Shown: one piece after another, positions 1 to 10,813 of the stretch | Numbering within the stretch: the stretch's first letter is position 1 | How the letters are laid out: the number at the start of each line of letters is the position of its first letter | Assembly: GCA_030625815.1 (NCBI GenBank) | Contig: DAOUQF010000024.1 | Location: 1-58,589, forward strand | Source: Eubacteriales bacterium | GTDB lineage: Bacteria; Bacillota; Clostridia; Tissierellales; GPF-1 | Direction of reading: 5' to 3' | Length of the DNA: 58,589 nt | The notes under the pieces: generated by a model | Told to the model about the DNA's origin: nothing | The model's input: only the letters and a program-made list of their open reading frames with translations | The model's database searches: none | Made by a program: the position numbers and the translations under genes

Positions 1-265
1 CCTGTGCTTGGCGTGTATCCGGCAACAGCATCATAATCACGTCCGACGCCTTGGTTGCTTCCGCAACCGTCATAACGGTCAATCCCATTTCCTCAGCCTT
101 GGGCCATGATCGACTGCCCTCGTACAATCCTACGATGACAGAAGCACCACTCTCTTTCAAGTTCAGCGCGTGAGCGTGTCCCTGGCTTCCAAAGCCTAGA
201 ATCGCCACTTTCTTTCCTGCAATCACCTCAAAGTTCGCATCATTGTCATAATACATCGTCGCCAT
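1..265 (-). CDS. ilvC: Ketol-acid reductoisomerase, N-terminal part (cut by window edge)
   Basis: This is the second enzyme of valine, leucine and isoleucine synthesis. It converts acetolactate or acetohydroxybutyrate to the dihydroxy acid using NADPH. About 88 N-terminal residues are visible, starting MATMYYD, with the Rossmann nucleotide-binding motif [10 protein letters not shown] at about residues 24-33 and the following [13 protein letters not shown] stretch typical of IlvC. The ATG at 265-263 lies a few bases after the stop of the upstream ACT gene, so it is co-transcribed with the two ACT genes and the tandem leader peptides. The 3' end lies beyond base 1. Identification rests on strong motif match; cofactor preference cannot be judged from this fragment. 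Confidence 0.95.
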
Positions 266-267
266 TT

Positions 268-513
268 TTATACTTCCTCCTTGATTAATTGAATTGAATT
301 TACATCAACAAGCTTTGCTAATTGCCGCATCGCTCGATTGGCTGTCATATGGTTGGTTCCATTTAAATAAATATGCATTTCATGGCTGCCTGATTGAGAG
401 GGGATCGCCTGCAAGTTCATACCAGAGATTTCAAATTCTTTCCTTCTCAATGTGTTGGAAACACGGACAAAACTATCCATTCCTTTTTCTAATTTCATGT
501 AAATGGTTTGCAT
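268..513 (-). CDS. ACT-domain small protein, acetohydroxyacid synthase regulatory subunit-like (copy 2)
   Basis: The product is 81 residues and starts [15 protein letters not shown]. It has the single ACT-domain pattern of short acetohydroxyacid synthase regulatory subunits (IlvM/IlvN type): a strand ending [11 protein letters not shown], a central MHIYLNGTN strand and a final [16 protein letters not shown]. IlvM of enterobacteria is about the same length, whereas IlvH is roughly twice as long. The start has a good GGAGGG site. It is nearly identical to the preceding gene (526-768), so it arose by tandem duplication. The catalytic subunit (IlvB/IlvG) is not in the window. It could regulate an acetohydroxyacid synthase encoded past ilvC, or be a stand-alone branched-chain amino acid sensor. 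Confidence 0.8.
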
Positions 514-525
514 CTCTTTCCCTCC

Positions 526-768
526 TTAGGCTTCCTTGATTAATTGAATCGAATTGACATCAATCAGCTTTGCTAATTGTCGCATTGCTCGATTGGCTGT
601 CATAGGGTTGGTTCCTTGTAAATGAATATGCATTTCATGTCTGCCCGGTTCAGAAGGAATCACCTGCAAATTCATTCCGGAAATTTCAAATTCTTTTCTT
701 CTCAATGTACTAGATACGCGGATAAAACTATCCATTCCTTTTTCTAATTTCGCATAAATTGTTTGCAT
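526..768 (-). CDS. ACT-domain small protein, acetohydroxyacid synthase regulatory subunit-like (copy 1)
   Basis: The product is 80 residues and starts [15 protein letters not shown]. It is the first gene after the two leader-peptide attenuators. The reading frame stays open upstream through terminator 1, but the AGGAGG site just before the ATG at 768 fixes the start. It matches copy 2 along its whole length with only scattered substitutions, including YAK/YMK, FIRVSS/FVRVSN and HLQGTNP/YLNGTNH. Family knowledge: ACT small subunits bind valine or leucine and stimulate and feedback-inhibit acetohydroxyacid synthase. Two different copies could assemble as a heteromeric regulator; that is inference. 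Confidence 0.8.
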   Translation of the reverse strand: MQTIYAKLEKGMDSFIRVSSTLRRKEFEISGMNLQVIPSEPGRHEMHIHLQGTNPMTANRAMRQLAKLIDVNSIQLIKEA

Positions 769-791: not shown

Positions 792-826
792 AAAAAAAAC
801 GGGACGTTCCGAAGAACGTCCCGTTT
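792..826 (-). terminator. Attenuator terminator 1 (after leader peptide 1)
   Basis: On the minus strand a perfect stem, AAACGGGACGTTC with a TTCG-type loop and its complement, is followed by a run of about eight U. It lies between leader peptide 1 and the first ACT gene. Its position and form are those of a transcription attenuator. It is almost the same sequence as terminator 2 at 1084-1118. Confidence 0.9.
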
Positions 827-848
827 GGTAACATTGACTAAATCAACA

Positions 849-1031
849 TCAATACAATGGGTTCACTCTTTCGAAATCACTTTGAAATTTTTCTCTCAGG
901 ACAACGACTTGATCGACGAGAACAAGGTTCACGAGCACGACGACGAGATCCACGAGTACGACGAGTACAGGGATCAGGAGAAACACGAGTGTATTCAAAT
1001 TGTTTAAGAAAGTCGATTCCATTGTATTCAT
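849..1031 (-). CDS. Leu/Val-rich leader peptide 1 (attenuation)
   Basis: This small gene encodes 60 residues. The ATG at 1031 has a GGAG site eight bases upstream; a GTG three codons earlier is less likely. The middle of the peptide is an extreme run of leucine and valine (for example LVVLVDLVVVLVNLVLV), about half of all residues being Leu, Val or Ile. It stops about 20 bases before the terminator stem at 792-826. This is the classic design in which ribosome stalling at Leu/Val codons during starvation prevents terminator formation. The Leu codons in the run are largely CTC and the Val codons largely GTC or GTA/GTG. An antiterminator pairing is expected but I did not fold it. Confidence 0.82.
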   Translation of the reverse strand: MNTMESTFLNNLNTLVFLLIPVLVVLVDLVVVLVNLVLVDQVVVLREKFQSDFERVNPLY

Positions 1032-1083
1032 GATTTTCACTCCAATTTTAACCAGTTCAGAATTTAGGGATAAGATTTTTCAT

Positions 1084-1118
1084 AAAAAAAACGGGCCGTT
1101 CCGAAGAACGCCCCGTTT
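1084..1118 (-). terminator. Attenuator terminator 2 (after leader peptide 2)
   Basis: On the minus strand a GC-rich stem with one C/C mismatch, a TTCG-type loop and a run of eight U lies directly after leader peptide 2. The sequence is nearly the same as terminator 1, so the leader-terminator unit has been duplicated in tandem. Confidence 0.9.
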
Positions 1119-1134
1119 GGTAATTTTCACCAAA

Positions 1135-1287
1135 TTAACACAGATACAATGGGTTCGATCTTTCGCAACAATTTTGAATTTTATTTTCGACCACGACGAC
1201 GAGGCCCACGAGTGCGACGAGCACAGGGACCAAGACGAGAACGAGCATATTCAAATTGTTTGAAAAGATTGTGTTCATTGCATTCAT
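1135..1287 (-). CDS. Leu/Val-rich leader peptide 2 (attenuation, promoter-proximal)
   Basis: This small gene encodes 50 residues, with ATG at 1287 preceded by a GGAG site. The frame runs further upstream, but only this start has a ribosome site and it lies downstream of the consensus promoter. The core reads LVLVLVPVLVALVGLVVVV, followed by a polar tail ending NPLYLC. Leader peptide 1 shares the start (MN..MxxxFxNNLN), the run and the NPLY tail, so they are paralogues. This is the first of two serial attenuators; read-through of both is needed to reach the ACT genes and ilvC. Confidence 0.82.
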   Translation of the reverse strand: MNAMNTIFSNNLNMLVLVLVPVLVALVGLVVVVENKIQNCCERSNPLYLC

Positions 1288-1357: not shown

Positions 1358-1386
1358 ATTATAAGGGGCGAGAAGCCCTCTGTCAA
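1358..1386 (-). promoter_or_regulatory. Consensus sigma-A promoter of the leader-ACT-ilvC unit
   Basis: The minus strand has TTGACA at 1386-1381 and TATAAT at 1363-1358 with a 17-base spacer, a perfect match to the vegetative consensus. Transcription would begin near 1351, about 60 bases before leader peptide 2. Such a strong promoter fits control by attenuation. Confidence 0.9.
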
Positions 1387-1431: not shown

Positions 1432-2490
1432 TTAGTTCTCGATCTCACGGACAATTGCCTCCGTCAGCTGTTCAGTCGTTCGGATTTCACATCCCGGCTG
1501 CATCAAATCGCCAGTGCGCTCGCCCCGCTCCAACACCACGGAAACAGCTTTTTCAATCCGTTCCGCCAGGTCTTTTCGCTTCAGGCTGTAGATGCAAAGC
1601 AGGGCCATGGACAGAATCGCCGCAACGGGATTCGCCTTTCCCTGTCCCGCAATATCCGGCGCGGATCCATGGATCGGCTCGTACAGCGCCTTGCTCTCCC
1701 CGATGGATGCAGAAGGCAAAAGACCGATGGAACCAACCAAAACACTCGCCTCATCGGACAAGATGTCTCCAAAAATATTATTCGTCACCATCACATCGAA
1801 TTGACCCGGATCCCGAATCAATTGCATGGCAGCATTGTCTACATACAGGTGATCCAAGGCAACATCTGGATATTGTTCCGCCACCTCTTCCATCACGCGT
1901 CTCCACAACCGGGAACTGGCCAGGACATTGGCCTTGTCCACACTGGTCACGCGCTTGCCTCTTGTTTGCGCCGTTTGAAACGCCACATGAGCAATGCGGG
2001 TAATTTCTTCTCGTGAATATTTCTCCTCGTCAGAGGCAACATCATCGCCCTCTTGACGCGCTCCGAAGTAGATCCCGCCCGTCAACTCCCGTACAATCAC
2101 CATATCGATGCCATTTTTCATGCGATCCGCTTTCAATGGCGACATATCCTCCAGTCCGGCAAACATTTGAACCGGACGAAGATTCGCGTAGGTCTCCAGG
2201 GTTGAGCGCAAAGCTAACAGACCCCGCTCAGGGCGAAGGGCAACGGGAATTTCATTCCATTTATCTCCGCCAACCGCACCCAAAAAAACAGCGTCCGATC
2301 CCATTGCCGTTACTTTTGACGCCTCCGGGAAGGGTTCCCCCGTCGCATCGATGGCAGCTCCGCCAATCAAGGCTTCCTGAATCTCATACTCGATTCCCGC
2401 TTGCTTTGCGATGGTTTCAAATACCGCAAGGGCTGATTTTGTGACCTCGGGTCCAATCCCATCCCCGGGGCAAACACATAATTTAAACAT
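1432..2490 (-). CDS. leuB: 3-isopropylmalate dehydrogenase
   Basis: The enzyme is 352 residues and catalyses the NAD-dependent oxidative decarboxylation of 3-isopropylmalate to 2-oxoisocaproate in leucine synthesis. The start [16 protein letters not shown] and the family signature NNIFGDILSDEASVL followed by GSIGLLPSAS are clear, as is EPIHGSAPDIAG near the C terminus. Length is normal for the family. It overlaps the end of leuD by 8 bases and is the last gene of the leuACDB cluster. No strong terminator is seen after it; the next promoter lies about 45 bases downstream. Confidence 0.97.
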   Translation of the reverse strand: MFKLCVCPGDGIGPEVTKSALAVFETIAKQAGIEYEIQEALIGGAAIDATGEPFPEASKVTAMGSDAVFLGAVGGDKWNEIPVALRPERGLLALRSTLETYANLRPVQMFAGLEDMSPLKADRMKNGIDMVIVRELTGGIYFGARQEGDDVASDEEKYSREEITRIAHVAFQTAQTRGKRVTSVDKANVLASSRLWRRVMEEVAEQYPDVALDHLYVDNAAMQLIRDPGQFDVMVTNNIFGDILSDEASVLVGSIGLLPSASIGESKALYEPIHGSAPDIAGQGKANPVAAILSMALLCIYSLKRKDLAERIEKAVSVVLERGERTGDLMQPGCEIRTTEQLTEAIVREIEN

Positions 2491-5796: not shown

Positions 5797-6010
5797 AAAA
5801 AAATAGCCCGTCCCAAAAGGGACGGACTTGCTCCGCGGTACCACCCTAGTTGCCCGGTTGAGCCACTCGTGTTTTCTTAACGGGAATTCCCGGGATCCTC
5901 TACTTCATTCAAGAATCCAGCTCCGGAGGGAGTACTAAGACCAAGAACTGTCGATTTCCACCACCCATCGACTCTCTGTGAGTTCTTTCGCCCTTAGGCT
6001 CTCCATCTAC
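5797..6010 (-). promoter_or_regulatory. Leucine T-box leader of leuACDB
   Basis: On the minus strand the highly conserved T-box sequence AACTAGGGTGGTACCGCGG (about 5851-5833) is followed by a perfect terminator stem GTCCGTCCC/GGGACGGGC with a U run. Upstream lie Stem I features: the apical GGTGGTGGAAATC segment and, after it, GTACTCCCTCCGGAGCTGG. The best specifier codon is CTC at 5932-5930, that is leucine. Known mechanism: uncharged tRNA-Leu binds specifier and T-box bulge and favours antitermination. The leader begins directly after the ilvA stop with no obvious promoter of its own, so transcripts from ilvA probably feed it. Confidence 0.93.
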
Positions 6011-6012
6011 GC

Positions 6013-7215
6013 TTAATATACGCGCTGCAAGGAATATCCTTGCGCTTCCAATTTTCCAATAACGTTGGCAATATGTTCATGACCGTTGGTTTCAACCGTC
6101 AATTCCAACGCCACCCGCATCAATCGATCGAGTGTTTTAAACTGATTGTGTTCAATCTTGACGATATTGGCATTTGCTTCGGCGAGGATCTTCGAGATAT
6201 TCAACAGCTCGCCCGGCTTGTCCGGCAATTCCAGAGTAAAGCAAAAGAGTCTGCCTCGACTGATAAGAGAACGATTGATCATCTCAGAAACACTCACTAC
6301 ATCGATATTGCCGCCGCTGACGACGCATACGATCTTCTTTCCCCAAACCTTGAGTTTCTTCAAAGCAGCCAGGGGTAGAATTCCGGCTGATTCTGCAATC
6401 ATCTTATGCTTTTCTATCAAAATTGTAAAGATCTCCAGCAATTCCCTATCGTCAATGGTGATGATCTCATCCACATATTCCTGCACGATTTTGAAGGCTT
6501 TTTTTCCGGGCGTTCGCACCGCAACACCCTCTGCAACCGTTGCTACCACTTCCAATTGCACAATGGATTTCTTTCGAATGGAGTGCCCCAGGGTCTGCGC
6601 CCCTTCCGGCTCAACGCCGATGATGCGCACATTGGGATTCTTCTCCTTGATCGCGAGGCAAATGCCACTGATCAATCCACCGCCACCCACGGGAACCAGT
6701 ACGATATCCACATCCTCCACTTCTTCAAGGATCTCAAGACCGATGGTGCCCTGGCCATAAATCACATCCCAATCATCAAAGGGATGAATAAAAACGGCTC
6801 CTGTTTCCTTCTGGATCCGTCTCGCCTCCGCATACGCGTCGTCGTAGACATCTCCATGCAATATCACTTCCGCACCGTAGTTGCGGGTCGCTTCGATTTT
6901 TATCAATGGCGTGACATTGGGCATCACGATGGTTGCCTTTACCCCCAATTTTTGTGCCGCATAGGCGACACCCTGCGCATGATTTCCAGCTGAAGAGCAA
7001 ATGACGCCGCAAGCGCGTTCCTCTTCCGTCAATTTCGAGATCCGATGATAGGCGCCGCGAATCTTAAAAGCACCGGTTTTTTGGTAATTTTCCGGTTTGA
7101 TATAAACCTCGTTGTCACTCATCTGACTGAAGTACTCACTGTAGATGACAGGTGTCGGATGAATAATGCCGCGTAAAGTCTCTCTTGCTTCTTCTATCCG
7201 TTTTACTGAATCCAA
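6013..7215 (-). CDS. ilvA: Threonine ammonia-lyase (threonine dehydratase)
   Basis: The enzyme is 400 residues. It is a PLP fold type II deaminase converting threonine to 2-oxobutyrate for isoleucine synthesis. The PLP lysine lies in QKTGAFKIRG (residue 51), with SAGNHAQGVA and the phosphate-binding GGGGLISG visible. A C-terminal ACT domain (LELPDKPGELLNISKILAEA onward) suggests allosteric control. I place the start at a TTG (7215) because it follows an AGGGGGGAAGG site, and the longer open frame would include the promoter at 7253-7281. It is the first gene of the ilvA - T-box - leuACDB arrangement. Confidence 0.93.
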   Translation of the reverse strand: MDSVKRIEEARETLRGIIHPTPVIYSEYFSQMSDNEVYIKPENYQKTGAFKIRGAYHRISKLTEEERACGVICSSAGNHAQGVAYAAQKLGVKATIVMPNVTPLIKIEATRNYGAEVILHGDVYDDAYAEARRIQKETGAVFIHPFDDWDVIYGQGTIGLEILEEVEDVDIVLVPVGGGGLISGICLAIKEKNPNVRIIGVEPEGAQTLGHSIRKKSIVQLEVVATVAEGVAVRTPGKKAFKIVQEYVDEIITIDDRELLEIFTILIEKHKMIAESAGILPLAALKKLKVWGKKIVCVVSGGNIDVVSVSEMINRSLISRGRLFCFTLELPDKPGELLNISKILAEANANIVKIEHNQFKTLDRLMRVALELTVETNGHEHIANVIGKLEAQGYSLQRVY

Positions 7216-8202: not shown

Positions 8203-10813
8203 ATTCTCCTCCTCCCGGAAGGTGGATACGAATCCGACTTCCTTGTTTTCCTTTATTTTTTACGACTTCGATCCGATTGTCAATCCGTTCCTTTAATTCA
8301 GGCACATGGGAAATAATTCCCACCAGTCGATTCTGCTGCTTTAGGTCCACCAAAACCTCCACTGCTTGATCCAGGGAAGCCGAGTCCAGGCTGCCAAATC
8401 CCTCGTCGATAAAGAGAGTCTCCAATTCAATGCCGCCGGAAAAGGCGCGCACCACATCGGAAAGAGCCAAAGCCAAAGCCAGACTCGCCTTAAAGCTTTC
8501 TCCCCCCGACAGGGAACCCACCGGTCTCCGATCCCCGGTATAGAAATCAAAGACGTCCAGATCCAGTCCAAAGCGCTTACGCTTATCCCGCCGTTCCTCC
8601 TGCATATGCAATTCAAAACGGCCGTCCGTTAAGATCTGAAGTCGCTGATTGGCCACCAGTAAAACCTCCTGCAGATAGCGCCTAAGAACATATTGCTCTA
8701 AATCCATGCCCTTCGCATTACGCCCCGAGGCTACATCGGACATCCATGCCAAGGATCCGAACTCCGTCTCGATTTGCTCCAGTTCCGCCGACGCCTTCTC
8801 CAGCCGTTCCAGGATCTGCAGCTCATCTTTCCAGCGGGTGGTTTTCTCCGCCAAAACTCGCGCCTTTTCCTCGACAACTCGCGTCCACTCTTCCACAATT
8901 TCTTCCTGTTCACCCACACTGATCGGCTGCGCAAATTTCACTCTTACCTCTTCCCGCAACAGGCCAACCTTCCGATCCGCTTCAGCCAGATCCAATTGAT
9001 ATTGCTGCAGTCTTCGATTCATCTGTTGAAGCGCTTCATAGGAGCGTTCCGCTTCCTCGTATGCCGCTTCCGTGCCTAATCCGCTCTCCTTCAGCGCCTC
9101 ATCCCATGCTTGCTGAAGCCGTAGCGCTTCCTCAACCGCTTCTTTTTGCTGAATCTCGATCACTTCCAATTGACCCTTGATCCTCGCCCATTTTTCATCC
9201 ATGGCACGGACCCTATTCATCTGCTGCTGACAGCGGCGTTCCTCCGCTTCCAGCTCCGCCGTCGACTGCGAACCGGAAACTTCAAACCCCTTCAACTGAG
9301 TTAGAATTCCTTCTTCCTCTCCCTGCCGCTTTGCAAACCGCTCTACCAGGGCTTGATGCGCTTCCTTCTCCCGGTCCAGAGACTGCTCGCTCTCGCGAAC
9401 TTTTCTTTGAGCCCGCGCTTCCTCTAACGGATCAAGATTCTGCGGCTGCGCCAATTTCGGATGATGCAGGCTTCCGCACACTGGACACGGCAGATCCGCC
9501 TTTAGATCCTGAGCCAAATAGTAGGCTTTCTCTTGCCTGATCTTCTCAAGAACCAGCGTCAAATTCTCATTAGCCTCAATTTTCCGTCTCTCATGTACAG
9601 CGATTTCCAGCTTGGTTTTCGCCATTTTTTCGCAAATCACTCGGCTCTCATTTTGACTTTTCAATACCCGTTCTTCCAGTTTTTCCCGTTCTTTCCGTCC
9701 TCGAAGTTCTATCTTCAGGCTCTCGATGGATTGCTGAATCATCTCCTGGGTCGAAAGATTCTTCCGCTTCTCCAAAATCCCTTCAAAATCCCGCTGAACC
9801 TCTTGATACCGGACCTCGATTTCCTTTTTCCTCGCCTGTACACGACATAAATCTTCTTTTCTCTTTTGAATTCCCAAGGCCGTTTCCCCGCGATCGCGGG
9901 CAACGGTAAGCGCATCAATCTCTTCGCGTTTTTCCACAAGGCTCGCTTGCTGCTTCTCCCAGCTTTCTAAATCTTTTCTCACTTGCTCCGCCTGAATCGC
10001 CAAGTCTCTCAGTGCCCGGCTCCCCTTCAGCGTATCCCTGTCACGGACAAGGGCTTCTTCCAAATTATTCAATTCACTTCGCCGGCTCTCCACCTGATTT
10101 TGAACCAGCTCCAGGGAGTCCATGGCCCCTTCGGTGGCAACGGCCGCTTCGATCGATTGAATCTGACCGAAAAGTTCCTCTAAACGAATCTTTCTTGTCT
10201 CAATCTCTTTCCGCATCTTCGAAGTATCATCCCTAAGCTTTAACTGAATCCACTCCATCTCGCCGGTGCGAAACAAATGCCTGAAAATATCCCTGCGCTG
10301 GGTGCTGTCGGCGATCAGGATCTGTCGAAACTTCCCCTGGGGAAGGATCAATACCTGAGTGAACTGCTCATAAGAAAAACCCAGCTTCTCTTCGATGGCT
10401 TGATTCACTCCCTGAGTCCGGGTTGCCTTTGGCACCCAATGATCCGACTCCCAGGCTTCAAAAACAGCTTTGGGACTCTCTTTGATCCACCCGTCTCCGC
10501 GTTTCTTTCTTCTCATATATTCAGGACTTCGACTCACCCGATATCGTTGACTCTTAAGTTCAAAGATCAATTGCACCTCGGTCTCTTCCGTTTCTTCAAT
10601 CATATGGCTTCTGAGGGTATCCGGGGTTCGCCCGTCCATCCCGCTGGCTCGCCCGTAAAACGCAAAGGTAATCGCGTCGAGAACGCTGGTTTTCCCGGCA
10701 CCCGTTCGGCCGTGAATCAGCAGAATCGGCGCCGCCTGAAAAGGCTGAAAATCAATCTTTGTCCGCTTCGCGAAGGGACCAAATCCAATCATGTCCAATT
10801 CAATAAGCTTCAT
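8174..10813 (-). CDS. sbcC: Nuclease SbcCD subunit C (Rad50-like ATPase)
   Basis: The protein is 879 residues. It is the ATPase of the SbcCD complex, which opens hairpins and processes blocked DNA ends. Walker A GRTGAGKTS is near residue 37, followed by long coiled coils, a zinc-hook CPVCGSLHHPKL near residue 441, a second coiled coil, the ABC signature SGGESFKASLALAL and Walker B TLFIDEGFGSLD near residue 797. It is shorter than the enterobacterial protein, mainly in the coils. The ATG overlaps the sbcD stop as ATGA, so the two subunits are translationally coupled. Confidence 0.95.
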   Translation of the reverse strand: MKLIELDMIGFGPFAKRTKIDFQPFQAAPILLIHGRTGAGKTSVLDAITFAFYGRASGMDGRTPDTLRSHMIEETEETEVQLIFELKSQRYRVSRSPEYMRRKKRGDGWIKESPKAVFEAWESDHWVPKATRTQGVNQAIEEKLGFSYEQFTQVLILPQGKFRQILIADSTQRRDIFRHLFRTGEMEWIQLKLRDDTSKMRKEIETRKIRLEELFGQIQSIEAAVATEGAMDSLELVQNQVESRRSELNNLEEALVRDRDTLKGSRALRDLAIQAEQVRKDLESWEKQQASLVEKREEIDALTVARDRGETALGIQKRKEDLCRVQARKKEIEVRYQEVQRDFEGILEKRKNLSTQEMIQQSIESLKIELRGRKEREKLEERVLKSQNESRVICEKMAKTKLEIAVHERRKIEANENLTLVLEKIRQEKAYYLAQDLKADLPCPVCGSLHHPKLAQPQNLDPLEEARAQRKVRESEQSLDREKEAHQALVERFAKRQGEEEGILTQLKGFEVSGSQSTAELEAEERRCQQQMNRVRAMDEKWARIKGQLEVIEIQQKEAVEEALRLQQAWDEALKESGLGTEAAYEEAERSYEALQQMNRRLQQYQLDLAEADRKVGLLREEVRVKFAQPISVGEQEEIVEEWTRVVEEKARVLAEKTTRWKDELQILERLEKASAELEQIETEFGSLAWMSDVASGRNAKGMDLEQYVLRRYLQEVLLVANQRLQILTDGRFELHMQEERRDKRKRFGLDLDVFDFYTGDRRPVGSLSGGESFKASLALALALSDVVRAFSGGIELETLFIDEGFGSLDSASLDQAVEVLVDLKQQNRLVGIISHVPELKERIDNRIEVVKNKGKQGSRIRIHLPGGGEYEAMPVSNE

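Follow-up and report, generated by a model that had tools for sequence, protein, structure and literature searches.

The ilvM-ilvM-ilvC operon of a Eubacteriales bacterium (Clostridia; Tissierellales; GPF-1) is probably preceded by two ribosome-mediated transcription attenuators arranged in series, and these, on our best reading of the sequence, took the place of a T-box. The basis for this lies in the anatomy of the locus, the paralogy of its units, their conservation, codon bias and terminators, and some compensating changes at paired positions; from these we infer translation of the leaders, ribosome stalling, antitermination and a multiplicative response. The operon lies at one end of the stretch of DNA analysed here (58,589 nt, contig DAOUQF010000024.1; hereafter the window).

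Two leader units in series precede ilvM-ilvM-ilvC

On the minus strand of the window, a T-box, leuA, leuC, leuD and leuB are followed by a leader region, two ilvM-like ACT genes and ilvC. The leader region comprises, in this order, a promoter (1386–1358), leader ORF A, terminator A, leader ORF B and terminator B, with an intrinsic terminator lying between the leader ORF and the next unit or gene in both cases. In the direction of transcription, the features are:

5815..6018, minus strand: T-box leader before leuA (RF00230, 115.9 bits; gathering score 93)
1432..2490, minus strand: leuB, final gene of the upstream leu cluster
1358..1386, minus strand: sigma-A-type promoter, TTGACA-N17-TATAAT
1135..1287, minus strand: leader ORF A, 50 codons, MNAMNTIFSNNLNMLVLVLVPVLVALVGLVVVVENKIQNCCERSNPLYLC, with an SD-like sequence upstream
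1253..1283, minus strand: segment 1 of leader A (start-codon region), which can pair with segment 2 (inverted repeat I3, 71% complementary; folds)
1203..1231, minus strand: hairpin within the Leu/Val run (GGUCC...GGGCC), a candidate pause hairpin (folds, covariation)
1189..1245, minus strand: control-codon run of leader A, codons 15–33 (codon listing, CTC enrichment)
1144..1174, minus strand: segment 2 of leader A (ER..NPLY codons with CCC and UUGUAU; inverted repeat I3)
1084..1118, minus strand: terminator A, 13-position arms (1118–1089) with one G.G mismatch, UUCG loop, U tract
849..1031, minus strand: leader ORF B, 60 codons, MNTMESTFLNNLNTLVFLLIPVLVVLVDLVVVLVNLVLVDQVVVLREKFQSDFERVNPLY, with an SD-like sequence upstream
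792..826, minus strand: terminator B, 13 pairs (arms 826–797), UUCG loop, U tract
526..768, minus strand: ilvM-like ACT protein 1, acetolactate synthase small-subunit type (Pfam ACT_5, E 2.6e-8)
268..513, minus strand: ilvM-like ACT protein 2 (Pfam ACT_5, E 3.3e-9)
2..265, minus strand: 5' part of ilvC (ketol-acid reductoisomerase), continuing past the window edge

A first-pass annotation of this DNA had described a perfect-consensus promoter leading into two leader-plus-terminator units, and the observation is confirmed: the promoter matches the consensus at 12 of 12 positions and lies outside the interval 792–1287 to which the arrangement had been assigned. The same promoter was found in G001 by scanning and in G002 by eye (G000, G001 and G002 being the three genomes of the genus examined). 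Between terminator A and leader B there was no coding-strand promoter match at the scanner threshold of 9 of 12 positions in the window or in G001, and units A and B therefore seem to be on one transcript. The terminator scan gave no match from the leuB stop codon to the promoter, so that leu transcripts may also enter the attenuators. The promoter spacer is GC-rich in the window and in the promoters of the loci L026 and L027, and contains an imperfect inverted repeat (read by eye; AAGGGG-N7-CCCCTT in G001) whose letters vary between genomes and which is a possible candidate operator.

The name ilvM rests on resemblance for ACT protein 1, which had no NCBIfam match at 0.001, while ACT protein 2 matches the NCBIfam acetolactate synthase small subunit models below their own cut-offs. 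The leu genes appear to be under separate control through the T-box leader before leuA, and tRNA charging therefore seems to be sensed in two different ways at the adjoining leu and ilv genes.

Leaders A and B are paralogous and rich in rare Leu codons

Duplication of a whole cassette, as the annotation had proposed, is borne out by direct repeats of 162 nt (75%) and 126 nt (79%) between A and B, which are therefore paralogous. Leu and Val make up 17 of the densest 30 residues in A and 23 of 30 in B, compared with a maximum of 11 of 30 elsewhere (14,684 stretches from the 38 window ORFs of at least 150 aa). The comparison of Leu/Val codon choice with these same ORFs, suggested earlier as a check, came out in favour of control codons: CTC, the rarest Leu codon at 6.7% of Leu codons in the 38 ORFs, accounts for five of nine Leu codons in A (binomial P 1.3e-4) and seven of 13 in B (6.9e-6), with a weaker enrichment of GTC (P 0.0034 and 0.036 respectively). 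When both strands of the window were scanned for units consisting of an RBS-like motif, an ATG ORF of 14–80 codons in which L, V or I occupy 10 or more of 14 residues, and a strong terminator no more than 120 nt away, A and B alone were recovered, and no unit was found in 20 dinucleotide-shuffled windows.

A third unit carries Ile codons, and all three are conserved in the genus

Contig C10 of the window genome bears a further ilvM-ilvC locus, which has a promoter of its own and a single leader ORF and terminator; it is located downstream of a gene for the acetolactate synthase large subunit and followed, after ilvC, by ilvD-like and acetolactate-synthase-like ORFs (these two named by eye). 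Its leader, MNTMNNIFSNNLNMIIIILVLELIVLAGLEVVFKKNNPSCYERIHPLYPCLNW, is paralogous to A and B. Codons 15–18 of this Ile unit are four ATT codons in all three genomes, where leader A reads CTC GTT CTC GTC in the window and CTC GTN CTC across genomes; rare-codon bias is absent here, ATT being the commonest Ile codon. In each case the control codons specify amino acids that the operon makes: Leu and Val in the runs of A and B, Ile in that of the third unit. The idea that A and B might respond to different codons is not borne out by their codons, which look Leu/Val-specific in both, but it fits the C10 paralogue with its four Ile codons. The two ilvC paralogues of the window genome (window 2–265; L026 2770–3768) agree at all 88 N-terminal residues compared and are closer to each other than either is to its orthologues, so that recent conversion or duplication is possible.

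Units A, B and Ile occur in all three genomes of the genus (nine units), each with an SD-like motif and an ATG, the motif itself being part of the search criteria. The amino acid sequence of leader A is identical in G000 and G001 and has one V-to-I change in G002, and the homologues of leader B have 69 codons in G001 and 67 in G002. A tree of the leaders groups the Ile units in one fully supported clade and the B units in another, with the A units hardly differing from one another, and the copies are therefore probably older than the split of the three genomes. All units of G001 lie on one 18-kb stretch, in the order threonine-dehydratase-like ORF, T-box-leuA-leuC-leuD-leuB, A+B-ilvM-ilvM-ilvC-ilvB and Ile unit-ilvM-ilvC-ilvD-ilvB (gene names by eye from translations). 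G001 also carries an insertion of about 110 nt downstream of terminator B and ahead of the first ilvM (L027, about 8609–8720), and a third, broken ilvM-like fragment past the second ilvM (about 9242–9322).

Each unit ends in an intrinsic terminator

The end of the terminator arm lies 21–35 nt past the stop codon in all nine units. The G.G mismatch of terminator A is kept in all three genomes, the same position being A-U in B and G-C in the Ile unit. Predicted energies are −19.6 kcal/mol for A, −20.0 to −21.9 for B and −20.0 to −23.9 for the Ile unit, a small margin, with terminator B slightly stronger than terminator A in each of the three genomes. Two terminator pairs have changes on both sides in the nine-leader alignment. 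Terminators A and B are distinguished by their stem length and conservation; a generic terminator scan was dropped as evidence, having found four against 5.2 expected by chance.

Conserved pairing in the leaders and the modelled effect of ribosome position

The codons GAA AGA, CCA and TAT around the PLY region are identical in all nine leaders. An RNAalifold consensus of these leaders contained 42 pairs, with 94.4% of cells paired (at most 51% in slid controls), and 10 of the 42 had changed on both sides, compared with 4.5 in shuffles and at most four in slid controls, the consensus being tested on the same alignment from which it was derived. The helix between the start region and PLY codons had 97% of cells paired and no pair changed on both sides, and in the small hairpin before the terminator five of six pairs had changed on both sides, with 83% of cells paired. 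For the hairpin in the control-codon run (A/B register), none of 500 shuffles reached the 95.1% of cells paired and 11 reached its three pairs with double changes; its pair-type count was ordinary, being reached by 151 of 500. Two other lines were dropped as evidence: the stability of the whole leader (MFE z of the ORF regions −0.95 in A and −0.78 in B; that of the Ile unit was −4.14) and CCC:GGG as covariation, this pair being invariant.

Folding of the leader for a structure that competes with each terminator had been named in the annotation as one way to check its proposal. In a model in which folding was limited to the RNA between ribosome and polymerase, the GGG of the terminator arm was paired with a probability of 0.41–0.99 across the nine leaders when the ribosome was upstream of segment 2, and of only 0.01–0.26 in eight of the nine when it was on the PLY codons, the exception being the B unit of G000 (G000_B; 0.95 stalled, 0.71 still paired on PLY). 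The mean difference over the nine leaders was 0.62 compared with a shuffle mean of 0.26 and was reached by none of 200 joint shuffles, a result that is inflated because the leaders are related; for single leaders, not clearly above shuffles, 14 to 94 of 200 reached the difference. GGG in the stalled A units was less often paired (0.41–0.65) than in their shuffles (0.78–0.80), so that its release on PLY is the unusual part, and in these units it mostly pairs with something other than CCC. With the ribosome at the stop codon, GGG was about half paired again in A units and 0.85–0.91 paired in G000_B; with no ribosome it was largely unpaired in the A units and in two of the B units, and mostly paired in G002_B and the Ile units. 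When the model allowed pairs across the ribosome, the switch was lost or reversed in five of nine leaders (the three A units, G000_B and G001_B), and went in the right direction in G002_B and, weakly, in the Ile units. Alternative structures therefore exist in these models, but the antiterminator is the weakest link of the attenuator reading.

Most relatives examined have a T-box where the genus has leader ORFs

A covariance model of segment 2 plus terminator (R1), built from the nine units, matched three of 249 genomes of the order, that of the window included, at three places in each, and among sampled genomes of the class (391) and phylum (398) matched only the window genome; given how R1 was built, the strict filters and the sampled sets, unlike leaders would be missed. 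A leader-peptide profile had matches in six of 248 order genomes at E 0.01. Three of these were the genus, with one further weak match in the window genome on contig C9, and the other three had one weak match each (E 0.003–0.009), which we take for chance hits on hydrophobic stretches. Scanning the loci fetched from outside the genus for similar units yielded a single ORF, in G007 (see below).

With the T-box model RF00230, the window, L027 and L028 gave a match before leuA only and L026 gave none, so that at the ilv operons the search was negative for the window, L026, L027, L028 and contig C10 (L029, with the Ile unit of G002, lay outside it). In the window genome as a whole there were 24 T-box matches, 21 of them above the gathering score and none on contig C10. 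By contrast, among the 22 of 57 order genomes outside the genus with a match to the start of ilvC, 16 had, in the stretches scanned, a same-strand T-box ahead of ilvM or ilvC (strands compared by eye; some fetched loci, such as L069 and L070, were outside the scan, the same places being covered by L022 and L017).

The remaining six of the 22 genomes gave varied results. G007, from another family of the order, has an unlike 77-codon ORF rich in I, L and V with a terminator-like stretch (L061 519–752), ahead of an acetolactate-synthase-small-subunit-like ORF and ilvC and with no T-box match at the locus; this is possibly an independent leader-peptide attenuator. The ilvC of G030 (L044 940–1500) lacked both a T-box match and a leader ORF rich in L, V and I; a different RNA element might lie in its long, AT-rich 5' region. 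In G035, ilvC lies behind other ilv genes and the stretch does not include the leader of the operon; the stretches from G045 and G054 end immediately upstream of ilvM; and G016 was rejected as an ilvC genome, its match not being a convincing ilvC. Apart from these six, G010 has an additional, second ilvC that lies behind a leuA-like ORF with no T-box in the stretch scanned.

Selection on the leaders and alternative explanations

Silent-site differences between the three genomes were 0.03–0.09 in leader A, 0.11–0.17 in the Ile unit and 0.38–0.62 in the nearby leuB, and the low value of A relative to leuB points to selection on its RNA; the same comparison places leader A under amino-acid constraint. 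In B, amino-acid sites differ by between half and the full amount seen at silent sites (pN 0.11–0.22, pS 0.21–0.23), whereas A hardly changes. It could therefore be argued that only one unit works as an attenuator and that the other, for which B is the candidate, is a decaying or constitutive duplicate: B evolves fast, changes in length (60, 69 and 67 codons), has no promoter match of its own, is followed by the insertion mentioned above in G001, and in G000 does not release GGG on PLY in the model. We nonetheless judge this unlikely, since B retains its SD, start region, Leu/Val run (29–32 L/V/I residues), PLY codons and terminator in all three genomes, and this terminator is the one predicted to be slightly stronger.

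The strong silent-site constraint in A and the conserved hairpins would also suit sensing by RNA structure or by a protein (a riboswitch or an RNA-binding protein), with the ORFs as passengers, and the predicted ribosome-dependent antiterminator is itself model-dependent. Such sensing is nevertheless highly improbable, given that codon content follows the amino acids made, that the Ile unit alters its first control codons and yet keeps an open frame, that leader A has zero or one amino-acid change between genomes, and that a scan of the window at Rfam gathering scores yielded no family besides the leuA T-box. A role of the ORF products as small functional membrane peptides, instead of leader peptides, can hardly be credited: the run in A has sufficient length to form a membrane helix and the amino acids of leader A do not differ between G000 and G001, but the runs of B and the Ile unit contain charged or polar residues (D, N, Q, E), B varies in length, the terminator follows closely on the stop codon in every unit and both A and B favour the rare CTC. 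Serial attenuation by two translated leaders is thus the explanation that we prefer. As first put forward, this interpretation is partly supported: its Leu/Val attenuators gain from the translation signals, the rare CTC codons, recurrence in three genomes, conserved hairpins and terminators and the lack of a T-box match in the stretches scanned; its antiterminator is the weak point, favoured on average in one model and lost or reversed in five of the nine leaders in the other.

Proposed mechanism

In each unit, a ribosome would translate the Leu/Val-saturated ORF as RNA polymerase transcribes the leader. Given ample charged Leu- and Val-tRNA, the ribosome would reach the PLY codons and cover segment 2, leaving the 5' arm of the terminator free, and transcription would stop; without translation, segment 1 could pair with segment 2, which would also favour the terminator. 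When charged tRNA is scarce, the ribosome would stall among the control codons; the 5' arm of the terminator would be occupied by segment 2 or by RNA close to it, and polymerase would read through. Since both gates lie in the path of the polymerase, A before B, overall readthrough would equal that at A multiplied by that at B, and two multiplied responses could give a steeper response or less leak; the Ile unit would serve the paralogous ilv operon.

One possible, more tentative account is that the leader is a reprogrammable cassette: a ribosome-sensing leader would have replaced an ancestral T-box, been copied and been retuned through its first control codons (Leu/Val versus Ile) for paralogous ilv operons. 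Two Leu/Val copies would be stacked as an AND gate, with the conserved G.G mismatch keeping the first terminator the weaker of the two, for a steeper response than that of a single attenuator. The unusual silent-site conservation of leader A would also be compatible with a further role in trans of its terminated RNA or its peptide.

Comparison with known systems

The ilvGMEDA and leu attenuators of E. coli and Salmonella combine a run of control codons, alternative leader structures and an intrinsic terminator, with a single, shorter leader, and ilvGMEDA shares with the locus described here an ilvM-type gene in the operon, a likeness by layout. T-box leaders sense tRNA directly, without a leader ORF; they do the same kind of job and occupy the same genomic position in relatives.

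The first-pass annotation had considered tandem ribosome-mediated attenuators with such long Leu/Val-saturated peptides unusual, especially in Firmicutes. To this it must be added that the class itself, including leader peptides of branched-chain amino acid operons, is already on record in Firmicutes; the duplicated pair seems new. According to Kaiser et al. (2018; PMC5794164), the ilv-leu operon of S. aureus has a single leader-peptide attenuator with a 26-aa peptide and is similar to the present case in being a branched-chain amino acid operon of a Firmicute in which a leader ORF rich in branched-chain residues (Leu/Ile in S. aureus) precedes an intrinsic terminator, and in lacking the T-box that B. 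subtilis has there; it differs from the two paralogous leaders of 50 and 60 residues, two serial terminators and third, Ile-codon leader found here. In the Salmonella mgtCBR leader, described by its authors as a singular example (PMC3641672), two short ORFs in one leader are each coupled to transcription, but these differ and sense ATP and proline additively, and the stem-loops are unlike intrinsic terminators. Here, a duplicated cassette has given two paralogous ORFs with the same Leu/Val codon type (judged by codons only), both units ending in intrinsic terminators. Firmicutes histidine leader-peptide attenuators exist where others use T-boxes (PMC2965389, PMC9413887); these concern another amino acid, and the portions of the papers available mention no serial copies. 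For ermB, two leader peptides are reported, with translational control (PMC8274638), and a modelling paper argues that single attenuators can already be hyper-sensitive (PMC1183508). Among the literature matches listed (titles and starts of abstracts, subscription papers being mostly beyond reach), none was recognisable as describing a leader-peptide attenuator for amino acids that has been duplicated to give two intrinsic terminators in series. What seems new here is that the leader unit is duplicated in series, that a third copy of it carries Ile codons, and that these units stand where relatives have T-boxes.

Serial copies of one attenuator would provide a natural test of what stacking sensors achieves, be it a steeper response, lower leak or the combination of signals, and the Ile copy on the same scaffold would test whether specificity is set by the control codons alone. 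Ribosome-based sensing in one genus, as opposed to the T-box of most relatives examined, would represent a regulatory switch within a T-box-rich lineage.
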